From Propionibacteriaceae bacterium (GTDB lineage: Bacteria > Actinomycetota > Actinomycetes > Propionibacteriales > Propionibacteriaceae): a stretch of DNA of 38,404 bases. Shown here one piece after another: positions 897 through 35,030 of this stretch; positions within the stretch are counted from its first letter, which is position 1; the number at the start of each line of letters is the position of its first letter. Where the stretch lies: the NCBI GenBank assembly GCA_031271975.1, contig JAISUR010000007.1, positions 1 to 38,404 on the forward strand, written 5' to 3'. The translations under genes were made by a program, and so were the position numbers. Under the pieces are notes generated by a model. The model saw only the letters and a program-made list of their open reading frames with translations. It was not told the origin of the DNA and did no database searches.

Positions 897-2720
897 ATGG
901 GCAAGAAGAGGATCATTTCTGTCGTGGCGGCGCTCACTGCCGGCGCACTGGGCATGTCGGCTTGCGCCGCACCCGAAGTGCAGTCGAACCTGAACGAGGA
1001 GACCACGCTCGTGGCCATGTACAACGAGTACATGTACTCGATGAACTCGCTGACCAGCTACGGCAACAACATGACCAACGTCAACTTGGTCTACCTGACC
1101 AGGGATAACTTCGTTTATTACGACGAAGACCTGAACTTGCAGGCGAATCCGAGTTACGGCACATATGAGAAGGTCTCCGACAACCCGCTGAAGGTCAAGC
1201 TGACCTACGCCGACACCGCCAAGTGGTCGGACGGGACTCCCGTCGACGCGGCGGACGCGGTCCTGGCGTGGGGCTCTCAATCGGGCGTGTTCAATAACGT
1301 GCCCTCCGAGCAACTGGCGGACATGTACAACGACGACTACACGATGAAGGAGACCGCCGATGGGCAGGTCTACTTCGACACTCAGATTTACGGTATCGAC
1401 TGGATCACGGAATTCCCGGAGGTCAGTGCTGACCTGAAGTCGGTCACCTTCACTTATTCCAAGCCCTTCGCGGACTGGGAAGCCTACATGCTGTACTTCG
1501 GTATGGGGTTGCCCGCGCACATCGTGGGCAAGCGCGCTCTTGGTGTGGAGGACGCGACGGCAGCTAAGGCAGCTGTGATCGCCGCCTTCCAGAACAAGGA
1601 CAATTCCGCGTTGTCGAAGATCGCCAATTCTTACAACTCCGATTGGAACTTCACATCCACGCCGAGCGATCCCGACCTGCTCGTCGGTTCGGGCGCGTTC
1701 GTGATCACAGAGATCAAGGCGAAGGAGTACGCGACGATGAAGCCGAATGAGAAGTACGAGGGCGACCACAAGGCACCGGTCGACGTGTTCACGCTCCGCT
1801 ACAACGAGGATCCCATGGCGCACGTCCAGGCCCTGGAAAACAAAGAAGTGCAGATTATCTACCCGATGCCGACCGCGGATGTGCTGTCGGCGGTGCAGAA
1901 GCTGAGCGATGTCGAGGTTTTCACTGATCCGGAGGGTACTTTCGAGCATGTCGACCTGACGTTCGACAACGGCGGCCCGTTCGATCCGGCGACGTACGGG
2001 GGCGACGCCGCCAAGGCACTGAAAGTGCGGCAGGCGTTCCTGAAGACGATCCCGCGGCAGACAATCGTCGACTCCATCATCGAGCCGTTGAATCCGGACG
2101 CCACCGTGCGCAACTCCTACAACATTGTCCCTGGTGCTCCGATGTACGACTCCGCGGTCGCCAGCAACGGGATGGCGGAGCAGTACGGCGAAGTCGACAT
2201 CGAGGCCGCGAAGTCGTTGCTGGCCGAGGCCGGTGTGAAGACGGCCACGGTGCGTGTGCTCTACTCGGCGACCAACCCGCGGCGCCAGCAAGAATTCAAG
2301 CTGATCAAGGAATCCGCTGAAAAGGCGGGCTTCGAGATCATCGATGGCGGCGACGAAGGTTGGGGTGGCGCCCTGGGCGGCGGCACCTACGACGCGTCGA
2401 TCTACGGCTGGGCATCCACCACCACCGGCATCACCGAGACGGCTTCGTACTACGTCGAAGGCGGCATGAACAACTACTCCGGGTACAAGAACTCCACGAT
2501 TGAGCAGCTGGAGGATCAGATCGGCACTTCGCTCGATCCCGCCGAGTGGGAGTCGCTGAACAACCAGATCGAGAAGCTGCTGGTGGATGACGCCTATGGG
2601 CTCACCCTCTATCAGTTCCCTGGCCTGACCGCCTATGACACGTCGGCGGTTTCCGGCGTCAATCCGATCGCGTTGTCACCGACGTTCTTGTGGAACTTCT
2701 GGCAATGGGAGATTCTGTAA
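897..2720 (+). CDS. Peptide ABC transporter substrate-binding lipoprotein (family 5)
   Basis: It is an extracytoplasmic solute-binding protein of the DppA/OppA family that would capture di- or oligopeptides for the permeases encoded downstream. The 607-residue product begins with a basic, hydrophobic signal (MGKKRIISVVAALTAG) and a lipobox-like MSAC at residues 20-23, so it should be a lipid-anchored surface protein. The SBP_bac_5 fold follows (for example YADTAKWSDGTPVDAADAV and the C-terminal NNYSGYKN region). AGGAGG lies just ahead of the ATG. A strong terminator-like hairpin separates it from the permease genes, which would let it be made in excess over the membrane parts. The family is certain; the exact peptide substrate is not. 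Confidence 0.92.
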   Translation: MGKKRIISVVAALTAGALGMSACAAPEVQSNLNEETTLVAMYNEYMYSMNSLTSYGNNMTNVNLVYLTRDNFVYYDEDLNLQANPSYGTYEKVSDNPLKVKLTYADTAKWSDGTPVDAADAVLAWGSQSGVFNNVPSEQLADMYNDDYTMKETADGQVYFDTQIYGIDWITEFPEVSADLKSVTFTYSKPFADWEAYMLYFGMGLPAHIVGKRALGVEDATAAKAAVIAAFQNKDNSALSKIANSYNSDWNFTSTPSDPDLLVGSGAFVITEIKAKEYATMKPNEKYEGDHKAPVDVFTLRYNEDPMAHVQALENKEVQIIYPMPTADVLSAVQKLSDVEVFTDPEGTFEHVDLTFDNGGPFDPATYGGDAAKALKVRQAFLKTIPRQTIVDSIIEPLNPDATVRNSYNIVPGAPMYDSAVASNGMAEQYGEVDIEAAKSLLAEAGVKTATVRVLYSATNPRRQQEFKLIKESAEKAGFEIIDGGDEGWGGALGGGTYDASIYGWASTTTGITETASYYVEGGMNNYSGYKNSTIEQLEDQIGTSLDPAEWESLNNQIEKLLVDDAYGLTLYQFPGLTAYDTSAVSGVNPIALSPTFLWNFWQWEIL

Positions 2721-2776
2721 ACAATCATCGGTTGACGGGCTCCATGGCGTAATCTAACGCCAAACGAAGCTCAAGG

Positions 2777-2814
2777 CCGTGGGGGCGTCGGTGAGACGCC
2801 CCCACGGGCGTTTT
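2777..2814 (+). terminator. Strong hairpin between binding protein and permease genes
   Basis: A perfect 13-base stem (2777-2789 with 2795-2807) has a five-base loop GGTGA and is followed by GCG and TTTT. It is a rho-independent terminator or mRNA-stabilising hairpin lying inside an operon. Partial read-through would give more binding protein than permease. Confidence 0.8.
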
Positions 2815-2830
2815 CGCGGAAAGGCGGTAC

Positions 2831-4357
2831 ATGCTACGGTTCCTCGCGCGCCGGTTCGCCCTGGCGCTGGGCACCTTGTTTGTGCTGTCTGTGCTTGTGC
2901 ACCTCATGGTCGACACTGCGTTGGATCCCTTGGAGGACTTGCGGCTTTCGACATCTCCCAACAAAGCCACCCTGATCGCCAACCGGGTCGCGATGCTCAA
3001 GCTCGACCAGCCCTGGATCGTGCGGTACTGGGATTGGTTCACGCAGTTCATCCAGGGCAACCCGGGCATCGCCTGGAAATCGCAGCAGAAGGTCACCGAC
3101 TTGATGTCCGGAGCAATCCAGACATCTGTCTCCCTGATCCTCATGGCGACGGTGATTGCGCTCATTCTGGGCGTTTTGGTGGGCATTGTCAGCGCCCTGC
3201 GGCAGTACACCGCGCTGGACTACTCCATCACCTTCGTCTCGTTCGTGCTCTACTCGCTGCCCATCTTTTGGGTGGCGGTGCTGCTGAAGCAGTTCCTGGC
3301 CATCGGATTGAATGATTATCTGGCTGATCCGGAGGTGAATTGGGTTCTGGTGGGTGTGCTCTCCGCGATTTCCGGCCTGTTCTGGGCCGGGGCCTTGGGC
3401 GGAGACCGCAACCGCAAGCTGCTCATCCTTGGTTTGGCGACGCTGGTCAGCTTCGGCACGCTGGCACTGATTCTCACCAGCGGCTGGCTGGACAAGCCGT
3501 CAATCGGGATCGTCGGGATAATCGTGCTGGGTGCGGCGAGCGCCGTGACGGTGACCCTGGTCTTCGCCGGCCTTGCCAACAAGCGAGCGTTGTATTCGGC
3601 GCTGGCAACCGCCGGGCTGGGTGTGGTTCTCTACTATCCGCTGCTCTACCTTTTCGCCTTCATTCCCATGAACTGGGGCTGGATACTGGGCCTGTTCGTC
3701 GTCGCCATCGGCTGCGGACTGGGCATCGGGTGGCTGTTCGGTGGCTCTGACCGCGGCGTCTCCATGCGCGGTGGTGCCATCGTCGCCATCTTCGTGTCCG
3801 TGTTGATCTTCGTCGACCGGGTGATGCAGGTGTACCCGGCCTATTACAACTCAAACACGATTCACCAACGCCCGATCGCGACCATCGGCGTGGAGACCCC
3901 GAATCTCGGTGGTGACTTCTGGGTACAGCAGTTGGATCGGTTCACCCATGTGCTGCTGCCCACCATCGCGCTGGTGCTCATCTCGTTCGCCTCGTACACC
4001 CGCTACCAGCGCGGCTCAATGCTTGAGGTCTTGTCGCAGGATTACATCCGCACAGCTCGGGCCAAGGGCCTTCCCGAACGGGTGGTCATCGTCAGGCACG
4101 CGTTGCGCAACGCCCTGATGCCGCTCGCTGCGATCATCCCAGTCGACCTGGTGACGTTGATTGGCGGTGCGGTTATCACTGAAACGATCTTCGGCTGGTC
4201 TGGCATGGGCAAACTGTTCATCGATTCACTGAAGAACGCGGAGATTTCGCCGGTTATGGCTTACGTGATGCTGACCGGAACGGTCGCGATGCTCGCCGCC
4301 TTGGCGGCCGATTTCTTGTATGCGTTGCTCGACCCGAGGATCAAGGTGGCAGCATGA
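2831..4357 (+). CDS. Peptide ABC transporter permease, DppB-like with extra membrane insert
   Basis: It is an inner-membrane permease of the DppB/OppB type, partner of the next gene. The N-terminal part (MLRFLARRFALALGTLF, then membrane helices to about residue 155) and the C-terminal part from about residue 370 (HVLLPTIALVL, then the ATPase-contacting loop DYIRTARAKGLPERVV) are typical. The protein has 508 residues, while DppB proteins usually have about 310-340. The extra length lies at about residues 165-335 and reads as six further hydrophobic helices, which is unusual for the family but might be a lineage trait. A start at ATG 2831 is supported by AAAGGCGG upstream. The gene overlaps the next one by ATGA. 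Confidence 0.9.
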   Translation: MLRFLARRFALALGTLFVLSVLVHLMVDTALDPLEDLRLSTSPNKATLIANRVAMLKLDQPWIVRYWDWFTQFIQGNPGIAWKSQQKVTDLMSGAIQTSVSLILMATVIALILGVLVGIVSALRQYTALDYSITFVSFVLYSLPIFWVAVLLKQFLAIGLNDYLADPEVNWVLVGVLSAISGLFWAGALGGDRNRKLLILGLATLVSFGTLALILTSGWLDKPSIGIVGIIVLGAASAVTVTLVFAGLANKRALYSALATAGLGVVLYYPLLYLFAFIPMNWGWILGLFVVAIGCGLGIGWLFGGSDRGVSMRGGAIVAIFVSVLIFVDRVMQVYPAYYNSNTIHQRPIATIGVETPNLGGDFWVQQLDRFTHVLLPTIALVLISFASYTRYQRGSMLEVLSQDYIRTARAKGLPERVVIVRHALRNALMPLAAIIPVDLVTLIGGAVITETIFGWSGMGKLFIDSLKNAEISPVMAYVMLTGTVAMLAALAADFLYALLDPRIKVAA

Positions 4358-5466
4358 CCGCCGCTCAGAATTCTTCCCCGCGGCCGGATGATCTCAGCCG
4401 CGGCGACAACGCAATCGAAGCCAAAGAAGTCGAGGGGCTTTCCCAGGGCCAGATCGTGCTGCGGCGGTTCTTGCGCCACAAGGGGGCAATGTCGGGGTTG
4501 GCCGTGCTTCTGTTCGTAGCTGGTTTTGCGTGCTCGGCGATGGGCATCGGGCCGATCCCAGGCTGGTGGCGATTCCAGGATCCCAATGCGACACATCCCA
4601 TGCAGAACAACGGTCAGCCCACGCTCACTTTGCCGGAATGGTTGGGCGGCCCCGGATTCACCTGGGGTGATCACCCCTTTGGCCAGGACAACATCGGCTG
4701 CGACAACTTCGCCCAAGTCATGGCGGGTGTCAAGACGTCGCTTCTGGTGATGGTGGTGTTGGGATGTACCGCTTTGATCGTCGGAGTTACCATCGGGGCC
4801 TTGGCGGGCTATTTCCGCGGTTGGCTGGATCTGTGCCTGATGCGTGTCACCGACCTGTTCATCGTGCTGCCCGTGATCGTCGTCGGATCCGTGCTTGGGA
4901 AACTGCTGTCGCAGATGGGAACGAAATTCGATTGGCCGCAGGACGTTGTGACCGCGATCAAGTACAACATGCCGCTCATTCTCGGCATCGCTCTCGGCCT
5001 GATCCTTTGGCCGCCGATGGCACGGCTGGTGCGCGGAGAGTTCCTGACGTTGCGGGAGCGTGAATTCGTGGATTCGGCGCGTGTCGCCGGGGCGTCGCAC
5101 TTGCGGATCATCGCCAAGCACATACTGCCCAACGCCGTCGGTGTGATCATCGTCAACATCACGCTGCTGATGTCTGAAGCGGTTGTGTTGGAGACGGCGC
5201 TCAGCTTCCTGGGTTTCGGCATCAGCTATCCCAATGTGTCGCTGGGCAACCTGATCTCGACCAACCAAGGCGCTTTCGCCACCCGGCCGTGGCTGTTCTG
5301 GTGGCCGGGCCTGTTCATCATCTTGATCGCGTTGTGCGTCAACTTCATCGGCGACGGGCTGCGCGACGCGTTTGATCCGCGCACGAAGCGCATCCCGTCC
5401 GTGCGCGAGATGAAGAAGGCCAAGAAGGCCGAGATCGCCGCCATTTCCCAGGGGGAGGTGGCATGA
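4354..5466 (+). CDS. Peptide ABC transporter permease, DppC-like
   Basis: It is the second permease of the peptide importer, of the DppC/OppC type, and would pair with the long DppB-like protein in the cytoplasmic membrane. The 370 residues comprise a cytoplasmic N-terminus with the OppC N-domain (GQIVLRRFLRHKGAMSGL), a first helix, a long external loop rich in Gly, Pro and Trp, then five helices. The EAA loop is seen at REREFVDSARVAGASHLRIIAKHILPN in broken form around residues 230-255. The external loop between helix 1 and the core (about residues 70-120) is long and holds the usual pore-entry FGQDNIGCDNF motif. It starts by ATGA overlap with the upstream gene and ends by ATGA overlap with the ATPase gene, so translation is coupled. 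Confidence 0.92.
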   Translation: MTAAQNSSPRPDDLSRGDNAIEAKEVEGLSQGQIVLRRFLRHKGAMSGLAVLLFVAGFACSAMGIGPIPGWWRFQDPNATHPMQNNGQPTLTLPEWLGGPGFTWGDHPFGQDNIGCDNFAQVMAGVKTSLLVMVVLGCTALIVGVTIGALAGYFRGWLDLCLMRVTDLFIVLPVIVVGSVLGKLLSQMGTKFDWPQDVVTAIKYNMPLILGIALGLILWPPMARLVRGEFLTLREREFVDSARVAGASHLRIIAKHILPNAVGVIIVNITLLMSEAVVLETALSFLGFGISYPNVSLGNLISTNQGAFATRPWLFWWPGLFIILIALCVNFIGDGLRDAFDPRTKRIPSVREMKKAKKAEIAAISQGEVA

Positions 5467-7277
5467 GCGAAGCAGTGGAGGCCGCTGGGCAGGTCGATTC
5501 CGTCCGCGAGACGCTGCAGGACGCCGTGCGCCTGTCCAAACGCATCGGCGACGAGGATGTGGCCAAGGGCGACGTCATCCTCGAAGTGCGCGACCTTGAA
5601 GTGAATTTCTGGGTGAACGGCGAATGGTTCACCGCCGCCGAACACATCGACTACGACCTGCGCGCCGGCGAAGTGCTCGCCATCGTGGGCGAGTCGGGTT
5701 CCGGCAAGACACAGTCGTCGATGAGCCTGATCGGGCTGTTGCCGCCCAACGGCCGCGCGACTGGCTCCGCGAAGCTGAAGGGCATCGAGCTGATCGGGCT
5801 GTCGGGGCGCGAACTGCGCGAAATCCGCGGCAACGAGATCGCCGTCATCTTCCAAGAGCCGATGACGGCGCTCAACCCGGTGTACACGGTCGGTTTCCAG
5901 ATCGCCGAGACGCTGCGCACCCACTACGTGATGGCCCCCGCGGACGCCAAACGCCGCGCGTTGCAACTCATGGACCTGGTCGAAATCCCAGATCCGGCCG
6001 ATTCCTACGACAAGTTCCCACACCAGCTTTCCGGCGGCCAACGCCAGCGCATCATGATCGCCCAGTCGCTGGCGTGCGACCCGAAGATGCTGATCGCCGA
6101 CGAGCCGACCACGGCCCTCGACGTCACGGTCCAGGCCGAAATCCTGAAGTTGATGCGCGAGTTGCGTGAACGCGTGGACGCCGCGATCATCCTGATCACG
6201 CACGACATGGGTGTGGTGGCCGACATGGCTGACCGCATCATCGTCATGAAAGACGGCCAGGTGGTCGAGCATGGCAGCGCGGAAGAGATCTTCCACAACC
6301 CACAACACCCCTATACGCAGGCGCTGCTGGCCGCCGTGCCACACCTGGGGACGGCCTTGAGCGACGACAATCCAGCGCTGAAAGTGTCGCTGGTGGCGCG
6401 CGACGAAGAACCGGTGCCGCTGGCGCCGGGCGATCCGGGTGCCACGCCGGCCTTGCTCATGGAGGACGTCGCCATCGACTACCCGGGCCAGGGACGCCGC
6501 AAGCCGTTCCGCGCCGCGCACCACATCAACCTGCGCGTCGACCCGGGCCGCGTCATGGGATTGGTGGGGGAGTCGGGCTCCGGCAAGACCACTATCGGGC
6601 GGGCCGCCGTAGCCCTGCTGCCCGTGGCGGCCGGCAAGATCTCCGTGGCCGGTCGCGACATCACCCACGCCAAACACGAAGACCTGTTGCCGTTCCGCCG
6701 CGACGTGGGCATCGTCTTCCAAGACCCAGGGTCGTCCCTCAACCCGCGCCTGCCCGTGGGCGAGTCGATCGGCGAACCGCTGTTCCTGCACGAGAAGCTG
6801 CGCGGCAAAGAGCTTTCCAACCGCGTCGAAGACCTGCTGGATTCCGTCGAATTGCCGCGTTCCATGCGCAACCGCTATCCGCACGAGCTTTCCGGCGGCC
6901 AGCGGCAACGCATTGGCATCGCCCGCGCCTTGGCCCTGGAACCGAAGCTGCTCATCGCGGACGAACCCACCTCGGCCCTGGACGTGTCGGTGCAAGCCCG
7001 CGTGCTGCAGCTCTTCTACGACCTGCAGGAACGCTACGGCTTCGCCTGCCTGTTCATCTCCCATGACCTGGCCGTCGTCGAGATGCTGAGTTCGCAGATC
7101 GCCGTCATGAAGGACGGCCGCCTGGTCGAGGTCGGCCCCACGCCCGAGATCATCAACAACCCGCGCCACCCTTACACGCAGCGGCTGCTAGCGGCCGTGC
7201 CCGTGCCCGACCCGGGGAAACAGCGCAAACGCCGCGAACTCCGCGACGCGATCATCGCGCAGCAAGGGATCAGTTGA
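5463..7277 (+). CDS. Fused peptide ABC transporter ATPase (DppD-DppF type)
   Basis: It is a single 604-residue chain with two ABC ATPase domains that would power the peptide permeases. Domain 1 has Walker A GESGSGKTQ, signature LSGGQRQRI and Walker B LIADEPTTALDV. Domain 2, from about residue 335, has GESGSGKTT, LSGGQRQRIGIARALAL and [13 protein letters not shown]. Each is followed by the Opp/Dpp tail (NPQHPYTQALLAAVP and NPRHPYTQRLLAAVP). The linker lacks the cysteine-rich motif that the second system's ATPase (23247-25145) carries, so the two importers are not recent duplicates of each other. It is translationally coupled to the upstream permease by ATGA and is followed by a bidirectional terminator at 7296-7315. 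Confidence 0.94.
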   Translation: MSEAVEAAGQVDSVRETLQDAVRLSKRIGDEDVAKGDVILEVRDLEVNFWVNGEWFTAAEHIDYDLRAGEVLAIVGESGSGKTQSSMSLIGLLPPNGRATGSAKLKGIELIGLSGRELREIRGNEIAVIFQEPMTALNPVYTVGFQIAETLRTHYVMAPADAKRRALQLMDLVEIPDPADSYDKFPHQLSGGQRQRIMIAQSLACDPKMLIADEPTTALDVTVQAEILKLMRELRERVDAAIILITHDMGVVADMADRIIVMKDGQVVEHGSAEEIFHNPQHPYTQALLAAVPHLGTALSDDNPALKVSLVARDEEPVPLAPGDPGATPALLMEDVAIDYPGQGRRKPFRAAHHINLRVDPGRVMGLVGESGSGKTTIGRAAVALLPVAAGKISVAGRDITHAKHEDLLPFRRDVGIVFQDPGSSLNPRLPVGESIGEPLFLHEKLRGKELSNRVEDLLDSVELPRSMRNRYPHELSGGQRQRIGIARALALEPKLLIADEPTSALDVSVQARVLQLFYDLQERYGFACLFISHDLAVVEMLSSQIAVMKDGRLVEVGPTPEIINNPRHPYTQRLLAAVPVPDPGKQRKRRELRDAIIAQQGIS

Positions 7278-7295
7278 GAATTGGCGAAACTGGGC

Positions 7296-7315
7296 AGGCG
7301 CTGTGAAACGCGCCT
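7296..7315. terminator. Bidirectional terminator between peptide operon and tRNA operon
   Basis: The arms AGGCGC (7296-7301) and GCGCCT (7310-7315) enclose an eight-base loop. The hairpin lies 19 bases after the ATPase stop codon and 6 bases beyond the 3' end of tRNA-Glu. It could end transcripts from both sides, although the T-tracts are poor. Confidence 0.5.
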
Positions 7316-7320
7316 CTTAG

Positions 7321-7393
7321 CATCCCCAAGCGGATTCGAACCGCCGTTGCAGCCTTGAAAGGGCTGAGTCCTAGGCCTCTGGACGATGGGGAC
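7321..7393 (-). tRNA. tRNA-Glu (TTC)
   Basis: The reverse strand folds as a 73-base cloverleaf. The acceptor stem is GTCCCCA with TGGGGAT, the anticodon stem CAGCC/GGCTG carries loop CTTTCAA, so the anticodon is TTC, and the T arm contains TTCGAAT. CCA is not encoded. It is the last of three tRNA genes read in the same direction, six bases from tRNA-Phe. Confidence 0.96.
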
Positions 7394-7399
7394 CCGTCG

Positions 7400-7473
7400 T
7401 GGCCAGGACCGGGATCGAACCGGTGACCTCATCCTTTTCAGGGATGCGCTACTACCATCTGAGCTACCTGGCC
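7400..7473 (-). tRNA. tRNA-Phe (GAA)
   Basis: The acceptor stem GGCCAGG pairs with CCTGGCC. The anticodon stem CATCC/GGATG carries loop CTGAAAA, giving anticodon GAA, and the T loop is TTCGATC. The D stem is slightly weak, with three good pairs (GCT with AGC). It is the middle gene of the three-tRNA operon and does not encode CCA. Confidence 0.96.
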
Positions 7474-7480
7474 GCTGGAG

Positions 7481-7554
7481 CGACCCCGACGGGACTTGAA
7501 CCCGCGACCTTCGGCGTGACAGGCCGACGCGCTAACCAACTGCGCTACGGGGCC
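7481..7554 (-). tRNA. tRNA-Asp (GTC)
   Basis: The acceptor stem GGCCCCG pairs with CGGGGTC, with discriminator G as usual for Asp. The anticodon stem TCGGC/GCCGA carries loop CTGTCAC, giving anticodon GTC. It is the first gene of the operon and lies seven bases from tRNA-Phe. Confidence 0.96.
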
Positions 7555-7566
7555 TTTACAGACCTT

Positions 7567-7584
7567 GCTGGCCCGTGGGCCAGC
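7567..7584. repeat. Perfect palindrome in the tRNA operon leader
   Basis: The arms GCTGGCCC (7567-7574) and GGGCCAGC (7577-7584) are separated by only GT. It lies between the likely promoter and the 5' end of tRNA-Asp (7554). It could be an operator, or a hairpin that helps processing of the tRNA precursor. Confidence 0.5.
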
Positions 7585-7590
7585 CGTAAA

Positions 7591-7620
7591 ACTATAGCCT
7601 ACAGGCTTGCCTGGTGCGAA
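7591..7620 (-). promoter_or_regulatory. Likely promoter of the tRNA operon
   Basis: On the minus strand there is a -35-like TTCGCA (7620-7615), an 18-base gap and a -10-like TATAGT (7596-7591). It sits 37 bases before tRNA-Asp. The -10 element is good and the -35 element is weak. Confidence 0.5.
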
Positions 7621-7631
7621 ATCCGAAATAT

Positions 7632-7776
7632 GTCATCCCGGACTCGTTCCGGTGCATGGGACTTTGTCCCAAGATCCCGGAACAGGTCCGGGATGACGGG
7701 CGGGTTTCTTCCGAAGTGTCCTCGCTTCGCTGCGGTACTTTGCGGGGTGGGGTCCGGGATCTCGGACGTAGTCCGT
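7632..7776. repeat. Modular intergenic palindromic repeat, copy 1
   Basis: The head GTCATCCCGGACTCGTTCC at 7632 and its near reverse complement at 7677-7697 form long arms. They enclose an inner hairpin TGGGAC-TTT-GTCCCA. A degenerate piece of the 44-bp unit (ACTTTGCGGGGTGG, about 7737-7750) and the block GATCTCGGACGTAGTCCG (about 7758-7775) follow. The same blocks recur in other orders near 29.0-29.3 kb and 34.9-35.0 kb. There is no coding content; the nearest gene starts at 7811. Confidence 0.8.
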
Positions 7777-7810
7777 ACGATGCCGAACCCTTGGGGGCCA
7801 TACTGGAGGC

Positions 7811-8440
7811 ATGCAATGGTGGGGCGTTTGGGCGCTGCTCATAGTGGGGGTCACGATCGTGGCCTACGGCTGGCTGTCCGACCGGGTGCGGGCCAAGCGG
7901 GAAGCCGCCGCGATTCCCGACGGCGGGCCGCAGCCCGCGTATATCACCGAAGTCACGCCCGCCGAAGCTGACCTTGATCCGAAGCGCCGCGCCGAAATCG
8001 AAGGGCTGTTGGCCGACGCGCCGCAGATCGACGCTTGCCTGCCCGATCCGTCCTTTGTCACCGACAGGCCCAACGCCTGGGCGGTGCTCGACCGGCCGGT
8101 GGTCTTGGCCTGTTCGGGACGCATCGAGCTGATCCGCGACCTGCTGCCCGTGGTGTCCAAGGCCAACGCTGCCCAGCGGCCGCTGGTCGTCCTCGCGGCC
8201 GGATTCAGCACGGAGGTGCTGCGCGACCTGGCCGCCAACGCCGCGACGGGTACGCTGCGCAACTTGCCGCTGACTGTGTCCGAGGCGGAGTTGGCCAAGG
8301 CGGCCGAACTGACCGGTTCCCAAGTCGTCCCCATCGCCGACCTGCATGCCGGATACTTGCCCGACGACACCCTGGGCACGGCCACCCTTTGGGTTTCCGA
8401 TGCGGCCACTTCCTGGGTGGTCGCCGGAGAGCAGGGCTGA
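7811..8440 (+). CDS. Membrane-anchored protein with a stand-alone GroEL apical-like domain
   Basis: The 209-residue protein starts with one hydrophobic helix (about residues 5-20) followed by RVRAKR, which by the positive-inside rule places the rest in the cytoplasm. Residues about 79-206 align by eye along the whole GroEL apical (peptide-binding) domain. DPSFVTDRP matches the GroEL SPYF region, AVLDRPVVLA matches the strand ending in FILLAD, and IELIRDLLPV matches the helix ISNIREMLPV. RPLVVLAAG matches KPLLIIAED, VLRDLAANAATGTLR matches ALATLVVN plus the following RGxxK, and LAKAAELTGSQVV matches MLQDIATLTGGTVI. The equatorial ATPase and intermediate domains are absent. A role as an ATP-free holdase or client adaptor at the membrane is inference. 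GGAGG at 7805-7809 lies only one base before this ATG, so the start is a little uncertain. Confidence 0.72.
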   Translation: MQWWGVWALLIVGVTIVAYGWLSDRVRAKREAAAIPDGGPQPAYITEVTPAEADLDPKRRAEIEGLLADAPQIDACLPDPSFVTDRPNAWAVLDRPVVLACSGRIELIRDLLPVVSKANAAQRPLVVLAAGFSTEVLRDLAANAATGTLRNLPLTVSEAELAKAAELTGSQVVPIADLHAGYLPDDTLGTATLWVSDAATSWVVAGEQG

Positions 8441-8766
8441 GTGCCTGGCGCAAAGTCTCAACCAAGCGCGCCCGAGTCTCAACTGCGGGTCAAGGTGAAT
8501 CCGCGGGCCCATTTCACGCTGAAAACCGGGGAATTTCCGCCGGACGGCGGCCAAACCCAAAATCCAAAGTCTCAACCTCGCTTCCAGCGGCATTTCGCCG
8601 CCGGATAGTTTCCGGAGTCGAGGCGGCTGGCGAGTGGGACGCACACCACAGCTCACCACGGCCTACCACAACACGTGGTGGTTTGCGGTGATCGTCCCGG
8701 GGAAGACTCGCCATCCACCTCATACCGGGGGATCTTCCCCTTCCCGGATTTGAGGAGGCGAAAGCC
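8441..8766. other. Non-coding gap of 326 bases with short repeats and a nested hairpin
   Basis: No convincing gene is seen. AGTCTCAAC occurs three times (8454-8462, 8475-8483, 8568-8576). A nested hairpin is present, with outer arms TCACC (8653-8657) and GGTGA (8687-8691) and inner arms ACCAC (8665-8669) and GTGGT (8675-8679). GAGGAGG near 8752-8758 is the ribosome site of the next gene. A c-di-AMP riboswitch, which often precedes wall enzymes in this phylum, was sought and not found. Confidence 0.4.
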
Positions 8767-10149
8767 ATGTTGGTTTCGAAGTTGGCACGGATGACAGTGT
8801 CGTGGTTGGCCGTGACGGCCATGACTGCGGCCACCGCGGGGCTGGTATTGAGTTCGGAGGCGCGAGCCGCCACCACCCCATACCAGACGACTGGACGGCT
8901 GAACGTGCGCACCGGGCCATCCACATCCCAGACCATTCTCACCACACTTGACAAGGGCGCCGTCGTGCTCGCCACCGGGAGCGTGTCCAAAGACTGGCTG
9001 CCGATCAGCTTCAGCGGTACCACGGCCTACGTCTTCGCCGACTATGTGAAGAAGACGACATCGACTACGCCGGCCACAGTCGGTTTGGCGGGCAAGAAGA
9101 CCACGACCGCAAACGTCAATGAACGCACCGCGGCTGCGCTGACTTCGACTGTCGTCAAAGTGATCAAGAAGGGCACGACCGTGTCGGTCACTGGGCGCGT
9201 CTCGGGCGATTTCACCGAGATCAAAGACGGCAGCGCCATCCGCTGGCTGTACACGCAGTACGTGAGCCAGGACGTGGACCCGACCCCGGACCCGTCGCCC
9301 GCCCCGCCTTCCGACGACGACCCGGTGACTTCTGACGACACCGGCGTGGCCACGGCAACCACGACGACGTTGCTCACCCTGCGCGAGTCGGCGCTGAGCA
9401 CCTCCACGTCGCTGGGAAACGTGCCGCAGGGCGCCACGGTCACCTTGACCGGTAAGCACACCGGCACGTATTCGCAAGTGGTCTACAACAAGGTGACCGG
9501 CTGGATACTGACCGGCTACTTCAAAGTGAAGGCCGATTCCACATCCGGGATTGTCTCCACGACGATTCCGGTGGCCACCGGGAAGGTGTGGGTCAACGCC
9601 ACCGGCGTCAACATGCGCACGGACTCGAATGTCGAGTCGGCCAAGGTGACCGTGCTCAGCTACGCCACCGAGCTGTCCACCACCGGCGTCACGAAGAACA
9701 AGTACACGACCGTGATCTATGACGGCACCATCCGCTGGGTCTATGACCAATACCTGTCGCGCACCGCGATCGATCCCACCAAGGATCTGGGGTCGACGAG
9801 CTTGAACAAGCTGGAGAAGTACGGCAAAGCGGCTGTCGTCGAAGTGCGGGAGAACTTCCCGCAGATCGTGACCATTGGCGGCTGGCGGTCTGGCAGCAAG
9901 TACTCGTCCGACCACCCCAACGGCCGCGCGATCGACATCATGATCCCCAACTACAAGTCCAACAAGGCGCTCGGCGACAAGATCGCCGACTGGGTGATCA
10001 AGAACGGCAACCGGCTGCACGTCACCTATCTGATCTGGTACCAGCGCAACTACCGTCTGTCCCGAGGCTCTTGGGTGAAGATGGCCAACCGCGGCTCCGA
10101 CAACCAGAACCACAAGAACCACGTCCACGTGAGCTTCTACGCCAGCTGA
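8767..10149 (+). CDS. Secreted protein with four SH3b repeats and a C-terminal M15-like domain
   Basis: It is likely an exported cell-wall-binding protein, perhaps a peptidoglycan peptidase. The 460 residues have a signal peptide ending near AxA at residues 32-34 (SSEARA then ATT). Four bacterial SH3 modules follow, at about 38-96, 103-163, 195-255 and 270-340; three of them have the LNVRTGP/VNMRTD type start. A Pro/Asp-rich linker lies near 165-185. The C-terminal 115 residues contain GGWRSGSKYSSDHPNGRAIDI and NHKNHVHVSF in broken form; the SxHxxGxAxD and HVH elements are the zinc-site pattern of M15/DD-peptidase-like folds. GAGGAGG precedes the ATG. Peptidase activity is inferred from the motif only. 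Confidence 0.85.
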   Translation: MLVSKLARMTVSWLAVTAMTAATAGLVLSSEARAATTPYQTTGRLNVRTGPSTSQTILTTLDKGAVVLATGSVSKDWLPISFSGTTAYVFADYVKKTTSTTPATVGLAGKKTTTANVNERTAAALTSTVVKVIKKGTTVSVTGRVSGDFTEIKDGSAIRWLYTQYVSQDVDPTPDPSPAPPSDDDPVTSDDTGVATATTTTLLTLRESALSTSTSLGNVPQGATVTLTGKHTGTYSQVVYNKVTGWILTGYFKVKADSTSGIVSTTIPVATGKVWVNATGVNMRTDSNVESAKVTVLSYATELSTTGVTKNKYTTVIYDGTIRWVYDQYLSRTAIDPTKDLGSTSLNKLEKYGKAAVVEVRENFPQIVTIGGWRSGSKYSSDHPNGRAIDIMIPNYKSNKALGDKIADWVIKNGNRLHVTYLIWYQRNYRLSRGSWVKMANRGSDNQNHKNHVHVSFYAS

Positions 10150-10153
10150 GCCA

Positions 10154-11239
10154 ATGCACTTGTCACGGCGTGTCCCGGTCGGCTCGGCCAACGAGTTGGC
10201 CCGGTTGCGCGCCAAGCTGCTCACTGACGGTGTGGCGGTTGCCGAGCTGACGGACACCAACCCCACTAACTATGGGTTGGCGGACGAACGTATATCGGAC
10301 ATACTCGCCCGGGCAACGACTACGTGTTATGAGCCGGACCCGCGCGGTTTGCTGTCTGCCCGCGAAGCTCTCGCGGCGCGTTTCGGCGGCGAGCCGGGCC
10401 ACTACTGGCTGACGGCGTCCACGTCCGAGGCGTATTCGTGGTTGTTCGCGCTGCTCGGCGATCCGGGTGACCAGGTGGCTATTCCCGCTCCGGGATATCC
10501 GCTCATCGAGCCGCTGGCCAGGCTGTCCGGGCTGGAAGTGGGCGAATACCGCACCTTCTATGTCGCCCGCGGTTGGGAATATGACTTGGACTCGGTGGCC
10601 GCCAAAGCCGCCGGGCCTGGCATGCGGGCGCTGGTGGTGGTGAATCCGAACAACCCAACCGGGGCGTTGACTGATTCGGACGCGGCTGCCCAGCTTGCCG
10701 CGATTTGCGCGGAGCACGGCTTGGCGCTGATCGCCGACGAGGTCTTCTTGCCGTTCTCCGACGGCGGGGTCCCGGTCCCGGCCGACTTCACCCTCGACGG
10801 GCTCTCCAAACTGCTCGCCGCTCCGGGTTTGAAACTGGGCTGGATCAAGGCGCCCTCGCTGAGCCGGGAAGCTGCCGCCGCATTGGACGTGGTCGCCGAC
10901 ACGTACTTGTCGGCCAACTCCGCCGTGCAGCGCGCCCTGCCCGAGTTGCTGGCGTTGGCCGACGACACGGTCGCGAGGGTGAACGCCCGCCTGCGAGCCA
11001 ACTTGGACGCGTTGCGCGCCGCTTTCGGGCCGCGGGTGCGGCCAGTCCAGGGCGGCTGGGTCGCGCTGGTCGACATGGGCGAGGACGTATCCCAACGCCT
11101 GCTGCTGGAAGAACACGTTTACGCGCATCCGGGATGGTTCTACGGGCTGGACGCGCGGACCCTCGTGGTGTCGTTGCTGCCCTCGCCGCCGAGCGCGCCC
11201 TACGACGCGCTTCGCCGAGTGGCGAGACCAGACAGCTAG
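10154..11239 (+). CDS. Class I/II PLP-dependent aminotransferase
   Basis: It is a fold-type I aminotransferase, 361 residues, probably cytoplasmic, acting on an amino acid and an oxo acid that cannot be named here. Visible features are the N-terminal gate segment TDTNPTNYGL, substrate/PLP residues in VVNPNNPTG (Asn167), the phosphate-pyridine Asp195 in LIADEVF, the Schiff-base Lys219 in LDGLSKLLAAPGLKLGW and a C-terminal Arg-containing end. It begins four bases after the stop of the SH3b gene and has no clear ribosome site, so it may depend on the upstream gene. Its stop codon and that of the opposite PfkB gene lie in the same CTAG. Confidence 0.88.
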   Translation: MHLSRRVPVGSANELARLRAKLLTDGVAVAELTDTNPTNYGLADERISDILARATTTCYEPDPRGLLSAREALAARFGGEPGHYWLTASTSEAYSWLFALLGDPGDQVAIPAPGYPLIEPLARLSGLEVGEYRTFYVARGWEYDLDSVAAKAAGPGMRALVVVNPNNPTGALTDSDAAAQLAAICAEHGLALIADEVFLPFSDGGVPVPADFTLDGLSKLLAAPGLKLGWIKAPSLSREAAAALDVVADTYLSANSAVQRALPELLALADDTVARVNARLRANLDALRAAFGPRVRPVQGGWVALVDMGEDVSQRLLLEEHVYAHPGWFYGLDARTLVVSLLPSPPSAPYDALRRVARPDS

Positions 11240-29030: not shown

Positions 29031-29270
29031 CCGTCATCCCGGACTTGTTCCGGGGTCCCCGCAAAGTATCGAAGAACTTTGTGGGGTGGTGTTCCGGGGT
29101 CCCCGCAAAGTATCGAAGAACTTTGTGGGGTGGTGTTCCGGGATCTCGGACGTAGTCCGTGTGGCCCGTCAGGGGGCACCCTTTCAGGGTGCATGGGACT
29201 GTGTCCCAGGATGCCGGAACAAGCCCGGCATGACGGGAAGGGGTTGCCGGAACAAGTCCGGCATGACGGG
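29031..29270. repeat. Modular intergenic palindromic repeat, copy 2 (longest)
   Basis: This fills the gap of 339 bases between the DUF4282 gene and the next ATPase gene. The order is head (GTCATCCCGGACTTGTTCC), two 44-bp units, block GATCTCGGACGTAGTCCG, hairpin GCACCCT-TTC-AGGGTGC, hairpin TGGGAC-TGT-GTCCCA, and two copies of the reversed head (CCGGAACAAG then CCGGCATGAC). The whole could fold as a long, branched hairpin. No gene is visible in it. Confidence 0.85.
29047..29134. repeat. Tandem 44-bp units, locus 29 kb
   Basis: Two identical 44-base units (29047-29090 and 29091-29134) each contain CAAAGT and ACTTTG, eight bases apart. CCCCG on one side and TGGGG on the other extend the stem to 11 pairs with one G-T. 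The same unit with GAG in place of CCG occurs twice at 34912-34999. Confidence 0.9.
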
Positions 29271-31605: not shown

Positions 31606-34600
31606 TCACACTCCCGCGCGGCTCCGATAGGGAGCGTAGTGGGTGTGCAGCAGCGTGTGTGCCAAACCCGAACCAGGTTCCCCGTAGAAATCGTCGTAGA
31701 GGCGCAAAATGTCCGGGTTGTCCTGCGACTTGCGGTAAGTCGAAGTCTTGTCGATGCTGACCAGCACCTTCTGCCGGTCGGGCAGTTCGCCCATCGACTT
31801 GGGCGCCGGATTGCCCGCTCCCGAGATGCAGCCGCCGGGACAGGCCATGATCTCGACCAGGTCGTAGCCGATGTCTTCGCCGGCCACCACGCGCTCCACG
31901 AACGGCACGGCGTTGGACAGGCCCGATATGACAGCCACGCGCACCGTCTTGCCGCCGGCAGTCACCTCAGCGTGCTTGAAGCCCTGGAAGCCGCGCACCT
32001 CGGTGAACTCCAAGTGGTCCACGAGCGGCGTGCCGGTCAACTTCTCCACGGCCATGCGCAGCGCCGCCTCGGCCACGCCGCCGGACGCCCCGAACAGCAC
32101 GCCCGCGCCGGTGACCCGCGAATACGGCTCGTCGAAGGTGGAATGCTGGACCTTCGCCGGGTCGATGCGCACCATGTCGACCATCTCCACGAATTCGCTC
32201 GTGGTCAGCACGGCGTCGACGTCGCGCAACCCATTGGGCGCGAACTCGGGCCGCGCCGCCTCATACTTCTTCGCCAGGCAGGGCACGATCGAGACGACGT
32301 ACAAGTCGTCCAGCGAAACCCCATACTTCTCCGCGAAGTGCGTCTTCACCGTCGCGCCCATCATCTGCTGCGGCGACTTGCAGCTCGACAGATGCGGGAT
32401 CAGGTCCGGGAACCGCTTCTCCAGCATGTTGATCCAGCCCGGGCAGCAAGAGGTGAACTGCGGCATCACGCCGCCGCGCTGGACGCGGTGCAGGAACTCA
32501 GTCGTCTCCTCCATGATCGTCAGATCAGCCGCGAAGGAGAAGTCGAACACCCGGTCGAAGCCGACCGCCCGCATCAGCCCGGCGATGAAGCCCGACGCCT
32601 CGGAGAACGGCACCTCGTACTTGGCCGACAAGACGCTGCGGGGGCTGGGCGCGATAAAGCCGACGACCAGCTTCGACGGGTCGTTGATCGCGTCAAAAAC
32701 GGTTGGGCGCTCCCGCACGTAGTCCAGCGCGCCGCACGGGCAAGCCGTCACGCACTGCCCGCAAGACACGCAGTCGGTGTCGATCAGCGGGCGCCCGTCC
32801 GAAGTGCCCACCGACAGCTGGCCGTTGTGGAACTGGAACGCCAGCACGCCCGGGCCTTCGATCTCGGCGCACGCCGCGATGCAGCGCCCACACGAAATGC
32901 ACTTGTTGTGGTCGCGCACGATGAACGGGTGGTCCCGCACTATCGGCGTGTACGGGCGCACGTGGATGGGCTCGGAATACTCGATGTGCTGGTCGGTGGC
33001 CTCTTGGCGCAGATTGCACACGAAACGCGCCTTGCAGCCGCACTTGAGGCAGCGGTTGGCTTCGGCGCGGGCCGCTTTGGCTTTGTAGGTGAAGTCCACC
33101 TCGTCGAAACTCTTGATCCGCTTGGCCACCTTCGCTTCCGGCAACGGGTGACGGGCGGCTTTGGGGATGGACGCGTACTCCTGGCGGGGCTGTTCTTCGA
33201 GCGAGCCGCGCGAGCAGTTGTACGCCTCCGGTGCGGGCCGCACGTATCCCTTGGAAACGAACTGGTGGATCGCGGCCGCCGCGGCGCGTCCGGCCGCCAC
33301 CGCCTCGATCACCGTCGCCGGCCCGGTGACGCAGTCGCCGCCGGCGAAGATCTTGGCCTCGGAAGTCTCCAACGTGCCGCCCGTCACATCGATGTTGCCG
33401 TACGCGTCGAGGCGCACCGGCAGGTCGTTGTACAGGAATTGGGTGTTCGTCGATTGGCCGATCGCCCCGATGACAGCGGTGGCGTCAATGGTGAAATCAC
33501 TGTCCGGTATCGGCACTGGACGGCGGCGTCCGGAGCGGTCCGGCTCGCCCAGTTCCATCTTGATGCAATGCACCTTGAGGCCGTTGTCGGTTTGCTCGAT
33601 GGAACTGGGAGCCGTCAGGAAGACCATTTCCACGCCTTCGTCGATAGCGTCGGATACTTCCTTCGGCTCGGCAGGCATTTCGTCGCGCGTGCGCCGGTAC
33701 AGCAGGCTCACCTTTGCGCCCTTGCGGATCGCCGTGCGCGCGCAGTCGATGGCGGTGTTGCCGCCGCCGACCACCAACACCCGGTCGCCGATGGAGGAAT
33801 CGTCGCCCTTCGCAACGCGCTCCAAGTAGTTGATGCCCAGCCAAACGCCGCGGATATTCTCGCCCTCGACCTGCATCGGCGTGGCCCGCCACGACCCGAT
33901 GGCCAGATACACGGCGTCAAAGTCGCGCTGCAGGTCTTCCAGGCGCAAGTGCGTGCCCAGCGTCATCCCGCACTGGATCTTGACGCCCATCTTCCGGATC
34001 GTGTCGATCTCCGCGTCCAGCGTCTTCTTGGGCAGCCGGTATTCCGGGATGCCGTAGCGCATCATGCCGCCGGGCTGGGGCTGGCGTTCGAAGACGGTGA
34101 CCGAATGCCCGTCCCGCGCCGCGTAGTAGGCCGCGGACAAGCCCGAGGGCCCTGCCCCGACGATGGCGATCTGTTTCCCGGTCGGTTTGGCCAGCTCCGG
34201 GGTCCACGGATGCTCCGAGAACAAATCCGCGTCGGCCGCGAAGCGTTTTACGTTGTTGATGGCGACGGCTTCGTCGACGAGGTTGCGCCGGCAGGCCGCC
34301 TCGCAGGTGTGCGGGCACACGCGGCCGCACACGCTCGGGAACGGGTTGCGGTCTTTGATGACCTGGACAGCCGCAGAGATGTTGCCGTCTGCGACCAACG
34401 CCAGGTAGCGCTGGATGTCGATCTTCGCCGGGCAGGTCTGCTGGCACGGCGGCAAGCAGTCGGCGTTGTGGTCCGTGAGCAGCTGTTCCAGGCGCACCTT
34501 GCGGAATGCGTCGATGGTGGGGGAGTGGGTGGCGATGACCATGCCCTCTGTCACCGGCGTGATGCAGGACTTGACTTCGCGGCGTTCCTCGCCGACTTGC

Positions 34601-34764
34601 ACCATGCACAGGCCGCAGTTGCCGTTGGAACGCTCCAGCCGCACGTCATTGCACAGCGAAGGAATGTGTATCCCTTCCTGCAGCAGCGCTTGCAGAATCG
34701 TCAGCCCCGCATTGACTTCGATGGCATGCCCATCCACGGTCACGCTCACTCGCGTATCGCCCAC
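31606..34764 (-). CDS. hydA: [FeFe]-hydrogenase fused to NuoG-like and GltD-like domains
   Basis: It is one 1052-residue chain that would couple H2 production or oxidation to NAD(P)H. The domains in order are: 2Fe-2S ferredoxin (Cys 38, 50, 53, 67); GltD-type cysteine region (103, 107, 111 and 146, 150, 154, 158); FAD site [13 protein letters not shown] near 201; nucleotide site [15 protein letters not shown] near 331 with [10 protein letters not shown], which suggests NADPH; a cysteine group RCLKCGC (572-583); two 4Fe-4S motifs (622-632, 665-675); and the H domain. The H-cluster motifs are complete: TSCCPGW (771-777), VPCLAKKYE (827-835; usual Met is Val) and MACPGGC (973-979). This fits the glutamate-synthase-linked subgroup (A2). 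Maturation genes are not in the window. GTG 34764 has GAGGGAG upstream. Confidence 0.93.
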
Positions 34765-34897: not shown

Positions 34898-35030
34898 GTC
34901 ATCCCGGACTCGTTCCGGGGTCCGAGCAAAGTATCGAAGAACTTTGTGGGGTGGTGTTCCGGGGTCCGAGCAAAGTATCGAAGAACTTTGTGGGGTGGTG
35001 TTCCGGGATCTCGGACGCAGTCCGTGTGCC
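34898..35030. repeat. Modular intergenic palindromic repeat, copy 3
   Basis: It lies in the 415-base gap between the divergent hydrogenase and rpsL genes. The order is head (GTCATCCCGGACTCGTTCC), two 44-bp units, and block GATCTCGGACGCAGTCCG. The reversed head of copies 1 and 2 is absent. Besides this element the gap holds a candidate operator (34793-34806) and a candidate rpsL promoter (35060-35088). Confidence 0.85.
34912..34999. repeat. Tandem 44-bp units, locus 35 kb
   Basis: Two identical 44-base units (34912-34955 and 34956-34999) match the 29-kb units except for GAG instead of CCG before CAAAGT. The change breaks part of the outer stem, leaving the CAAAGT/ACTTTG core. Both copies here share the change. 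Confidence 0.9.

Follow-up and report, generated by a model that had tools for sequence, protein, structure and literature searches.

A stand-alone, predicted membrane-tethered GroEL apical domain was confirmed in the window, meaning here the whole 38,404-nucleotide stretch of a Propionibacteriaceae bacterium that was analysed (assembly GCA_031271975.1, contig JAISUR010000007.1, positions 1 to 38,404 of the forward strand). The gene (7811..8440, + strand) encodes 209 residues, and the frame holds one N-terminal helix, a linker and the apical part only. As the first-pass annotation of this DNA had proposed, the adenosine triphosphatase (ATPase, equatorial) and intermediate domains of GroEL are absent, and a single N-terminal helix is present instead. 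The ATP-binding equatorial domain that marks a group I chaperonin, in which the ring contacts of GroEL sit, is therefore missing from this protein. It is a natural counterpart of the laboratory-made GroEL fragment known as a "minichaperone", the peptide gripper of GroEL fixed, by prediction, to a membrane.

The apical domain spans residues 69-209 (8015..8437, +) and corresponds approximately to residues 191-337 of E. coli GroEL. A profile comparison with GroEL in the PDB gave 3.1e-22, with numerous chains aligned up to residue 332-333, and residues 69-207 of the structure model superpose on GroEL 191-336, limits near those of the minichaperone GroEL 191-345. The GroEL apical fold was also assigned to the predicted structure by a fold search, which excludes an unrelated fold. 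The expected fold was thus recovered, but Pfam Cpn60_TCP1, the family expected as its match, gave no match in the 209-residue protein; identity between the window domain and E. coli apical fragments was 24-27% in the alignments. The equivalent of helix H (residues 108-120; 8132..8170, +) carries Arg109, Leu112 and Val115 at the positions of GroEL 231, 234 and 237, and that of helix I (residues 134-146; 8210..8248, +) carries Leu137, Ala141, Ala142 and Asn143 at those of GroEL 259, 263, 264 and 265. Compared with the apical domain of Cpn60 (191-376), residues 338-376 are lacking along with the other two domains, and the family adds its own membrane helix and a specific stretch at 306-331 and has lost Tyr203 and Val263.

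The engineered minichaperones (GroEL 191-345 and T. thermophilus GrAD 190-333) have near-identical limits and are likewise single domains without the ATPase; the 191-345 fragment helps in ATP-free refolding, and both it and the related fragment 190-333 are engineered tools (PMC9138447). Unlike them, the window protein is natural, membrane-anchored by prediction and widespread in one family. In the openly available literature that was searched, no report turned up of a bacterial apical domain that occurs naturally by itself or bound to a membrane. Superfamily annotation may already label such proteins "GroEL apical domain-like" without study. Chaperonin-type domains outside the usual folding ring occur in PIKfyve/Fab1 and in BBS6/10/12, which are of group II type, eukaryotic and parts of larger proteins.

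The best 19-residue transmembrane stretch is residues 5-23 (7823..7879, +), placed by hydropathy and charge, and in the structure model the helix is unbroken from residue 3 to 33. It is followed by a basic stretch and linker (residues 24-67; 7880..8011, +) with conserved Asp24, Pro36, Pro42 and Tyr44 and a terminal helix at 57-67. The window copy has no lysine or arginine ahead of the helix and four, together with three aspartates or glutamates, within the 15 residues after it, and in 99/99 aligned sequences lysine and arginine are more numerous after the helix than before (mean 4.6 in 15 residues versus 0.09). Because these residues are concentrated after the helix, the positive-inside rule predicts a single-pass N-out/C-in protein with a cytoplasmic apical domain, a prediction made from hydropathy and charge only. 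The N-terminal helix is hydrophobic and surface or secreted GroELs are known, so the helix could also be read as a cleaved signal peptide, with the domain acting outside the membrane; the charge distribution is the reverse of that of a signal peptide and the modelled helix is continuous, which makes this very unlikely.

The protein was found in at least 114 of 149 genomes (completeness >=90%) and at least 19 of 27 genera of the GTDB family f1, which we take to be Propionibacteriaceae. In total 140 loci were matched, giving 101 distinct proteins, and 99 sequences including the window copy were aligned after L137 and L142, which lie outside 190-260 residues, were omitted; the start codons of family members were picked by proximity to the profile start. 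Among the matches listed, genera g27, g22, g12 and g26 had none and g13 had the protein in one of nine genomes. Outside f1, the layout of helix plus apical domain was found in 0/31 (E up to 10), 0/69, 0/71 and 0/8 genomes, the samples overlapping and all rows being listed, with about 41 first-look candidates scored per genome in the samples of 69 and 71. Two further searches outside f1 also gave none with this layout among the roughly 150 matches listed for each. A spread across Actinomycetota, as had been supposed, was thus not seen in the fully listed samples.

A search for related loci with the single window protein as query gave no relative, and the same search with another query gave four titled loci, three from Micropruina (L091-L093), which NCBI files under Nocardioidaceae, and one from a "Propionibacteriaceae bacterium" (L094). 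Three candidate remote copies were rejected: in G716:C2 groEL is scattered across several reading frames, and in G325:C52 and G339:C158 it is truncated by contig ends. Further short matches outside f1 were rejected by their coordinates, as contig starts or weak partial profile matches. One assembly (G129) holds two differing copies of the apical gene, on C93 and C71; the C93 contig is just 5.2 kilobases (kb) long and could be foreign.

Elsewhere the window genome contains, as was to be checked, full-length groEL, in two complete copies (frames of 551 and 552 residues, the whole of Cpn60_TCP1 matched), and one groES. In a tree of the window copy and 28 random family members with 29 GroEL apical domains, the apical family and the GroEL domains lie on opposite sides of one branch (support 100/100, length 1.86 changes per column), and GroEL1 and GroEL2 of the window genome share common ancestry with the protein in their apical part across this distance. 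The tree gives no answer on descent from GroEL1 or GroEL2, the branch being too long and several rows being flagged as long. The ratio of nonsynonymous to synonymous substitution rates (dN/dS) was 0.067-0.366 in 13 non-overlapping pairs out of 24 at 70-97% identity. Judged from these comparisons, the gene is old and under selection. The missing domains, and nothing else, would fit a decaying, functionless remnant of a groEL copy; the separate group in the tree, dN/dS below 0.37 in 13/13 pairs, the conserved upstream motif and genomic place, and the occurrence in most genomes of the family all speak against this, and we regard it as excluded for practical purposes.

In GroEL, Tyr199, Tyr203, Phe204, Leu234, Leu237, Leu259, Val263 and Val264 (the eight Fenton residues) bind GroES and substrate, according to PMC9720267. 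The GroES loop touches L234, L237 and V264, and N265A stops GroES binding, not substrate binding (PMC3514286); non-native Rubisco contacts 267, 268 and 270, and also N265 and V264 (PMC10723157). In the 99 aligned sequences, large hydrophobic residues are kept at 204 (100%), 234 (95%), 237 (94%), 259 (90%) and 199 (70%) and largely lost at 203 (4%) and 263 (11%), and 93 of them have Ala or Val at position 264. The equivalent of Asn265 (Asn143 in the window copy; codon 8237..8239, +) is Asn in 99/99 and forms the sole invariant column of the 137 apical columns, and positions 267, 268 and 270 are variable (mean conservation rank 103 of 137; 93% of random sets as low). Along this groove the window copy carries Leu77, Ser81, Phe82, Leu112, Val115, Leu137, Ala141, Ala142 and Asn143, and Asp139 where most members have Thr261. 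The mean conservation rank is 24.2 of 137 for the GroES-contact set, a value as low in 0.97% of random sets, and 78.4 for the other-contact set (199, 203, 204, 259, 263, 267, 268, 270), as low in 76%, a comparison weakened by the fact that the residue sets were picked after the papers and columns were known and that buried columns are among the 137. The apparently better conservation of GroES-contact residues than of the other listed contacts is a lead, not proof.

Our preferred reading, held tentatively and at less than even confidence, is that of a natural membrane-anchored protein of minichaperone type whose groove holds an extended hydrophobic peptide like the GroES mobile loop. The reverse-signal-anchor helix (N-out, C-in) and a linker of about 45-60 residues would tether the apical domain at the cytoplasmic face. 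Because the ATPase, hinge and ring are absent, there would be no folding cycle, only binding and release. The retained groove between helices H and I would grip an extended hydrophobic peptide as GroEL grips the GroES mobile loop. The prime candidate ligands would be GroES, a heptamer produced by the same cell that could engage several tethered domains and whose seven loops would match an array of them, or else some client or partner that bears a loop-like motif, and the outcome would be that GroES/GroEL work, or a loop-like partner, is brought to the membrane. Partial retention of the groove together with the better-kept GroES-contact residues leans towards a specific peptide ligand. The more particular proposal of a membrane-tethered GroES receptor, an array of cytoplasm-facing domains capturing heptameric GroES or GroES-capped GroEL via the mobile loops, appears rather improbable.

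The first-pass annotation had suggested a new kind of holdase or client-recruiting adaptor, the part of its reading that stays a hypothesis. Such a protein would act at the inner face of the membrane, keeping hold of nascent or unfolded chains with no need for ATP before handing them to GroEL, Hsp70, Sec/YidC or proteases. Isolated apical fragments do function without ATP (PMC9138447), four groove positions (204, 234, 237, 259) are hydrophobic in 90-100%, and crowding in the membrane plane could stand in for ring avidity. The loss of Tyr203 and Val263 is less well explained by a general holdase, positions 267, 268 and 270 vary, and Asn265 is invariant though GroEL reportedly binds clients without it (PMC3514286); we consider this function unlikely, though a serious candidate. 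The anatomy is firm and the distribution narrower than supposed; as to function, the proposal moves towards binding of a specific peptide that resembles the GroES loop.

A second type of stand-alone apical domain bears on the same question. A weak match outside f1 (G683:C153:3473-3733) belongs to a protein of 280 residues (L182; 3227-4069, - strand) whose N-terminal domain is J-like (7.5e-7 to Pfam DnaJ) and whose apical part aligns with GroEL 216-346 (3e-19, NCBIfam). Like the window protein it has the apical part without the rest of GroEL, and by eye the equivalents of N265 and T261 are kept; it differs in that a DnaJ-like domain replaces the membrane helix and in its neighbours. Its cluster (1286-10967) also encodes an Hsp70 (9.6e-129), two J-like proteins that match TPR, and an ATPase of the FtsK/SpoIIIE type, the last matching mad8 and HerA models and EccC of the type VII secretion system (T7SS, NCBIfam), far below the cut-offs where these are given. 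The assembly belongs to another GTDB family and has 8% contamination in 520 contigs, so that the owner of the gene is uncertain. No second copy was among the matches listed for 296 genomes of the class (at most eight candidates scored per genome), and PADLOC gave no match for the fusion protein or the neighbouring Hsp70. This client-handling setting, with the apical domain fused to a J-like domain beside Hsp70 and J-TPR genes, is a point for the holdase; it indicates that an apical domain can leave GroEL for another chaperone setting, and slightly favours an adaptor role.

Another part of the domain is also conserved. The family-specific stretch (residues 177-202; 8339..8416, +; consensus approximately DLQAGYLP...LG.C..WVS....SW) has conserved letters that are mostly unlike GroEL. 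In the columns 306-331, Gly310 is found in 94 of the 99 sequences, Trp323 in 89, Asp306 in 88, Leu307 in 87, Pro313 in 84 and Trp331 in 75, and of these only Leu307 is common with the two GroELs of the window genome. In addition, the linker keeps Pro42 in 91/93 and Tyr44 in 94/99, and a protein with SH3 repeats is encoded downstream on the same strand in 19/21 loci compared (20 picked for long contigs, L095-L114, and the window). These observations would suit a co-opted domain in which the 306-331 face and the conserved linker contact one particular partner, perhaps in cell-envelope work, the groove being kept mainly for folding. Co-option gives no account of Asn265 as the best conserved apical column, though its loss is reported to be tolerated by a GroEL in fold and client binding, and the tryptophans may merely cover the surface bared by the loss of 338-376; it is possible, and on balance doubtful.

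Several further points weigh against the preferred GroES-loop-like ligand. The eight Fenton residues, taken together, show no unusual conservation, with a mean rank of 51.8 of 137 (10.7% of random sets as low). A clean split between GroES and client contacts is not to be had because all eight serve both, clients binding in a mobile-loop-like manner, as stated in PMC9720267; Phe204 and Leu259, placed in the other-contact set, are nonetheless kept. Affinity may be low because about half of the sequences have Ala at position 264 and neither Val263 nor Tyr203 is retained, and a lone apical domain is expected to bind GroES weakly. Gly310, Trp323 and Asp306, among the best conserved columns, lie outside the groove and would point to another interface. 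The J-like fusion beside Hsp70 suggests that apical domains freed from GroEL can take part in the handling of clients, and the conserved neighbours have no obvious link to folding.

Of these neighbours, the SH3-repeat protein of the window (8767..10149, +) has four SH3_3 stretches and, by eye, a signal-peptide-like start. In 14/21 loci the gene of a Zincin_1 metallopeptidase (PF06262, a match tested for one copy) is found between the two on the opposite strand, 0.7-0.95 kb from the apical-gene start in nine loci and up to 5.4 kb away; it is missing from this place in the window. Upstream of the apical gene the window has genes for the transfer RNAs (tRNAs) tRNA-Glu, tRNA-Phe and tRNA-Asp (7320..7554, -), and tRNA-Lys(UUU) is nearby instead in 18/29 other loci.

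A -10-like hexamer, CATACT (7799..7804, +), ends with a T that is 7 bases upstream of the start codon. Among the upstream regions of the 101 distinct proteins, which are from family members only, 74 have T at -7 and 63 have A at -11, and 78 contain a conserved TGG-CANNCT-like motif whose end is 7-8 bases ahead of the start. This pattern points to a promoter of extended -10 type and to leaderless transcription. No conserved -35 element was seen upstream of the 101 starts, and our own patterns for HAIR- or CIRCE-like repeats found none in up to 120 bases there. A near-identical 44-base unit forms an exact tandem pair at 29046-29133 and at 34912-34999, apparently between genes. A stem-loop related to this unit (GTCATCCCGGAC...GTCCGGGATGAC) lies directly upstream of the apical gene at 7632-7697 and also at about 29031-29269. 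An open reading frame of 1052 residues (31606-34764, -) combines, by eye, an NADPH-glutamate-synthase-like part, ferredoxin motifs and an [FeFe]-hydrogenase-like C-terminal half. A 647-residue frame (5226-7169, -) antisense to an ABC-transporter ATPase gene (5463-7277) probably just reflects codon use at high G+C.

Ever since the first minichaperones of the 1990s, it has been a matter of debate whether a GroEL apical domain by itself is of use to a cell. Here evolution made such a domain with a predicted anchor and kept it in most genomes of a family that also holds complete GroEL, and the existence of a second stand-alone type suggests that apical domains were separated from GroEL and put to new use on more than one occasion. 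With an Asn265 equivalent that never varies and some client-contact residues lost, the family offers a natural experiment in which recognition of the co-chaperonin and of clients may be told apart. If the GroES receptor is true, chaperonin activity would be placed or regulated at the cell membrane in this family.
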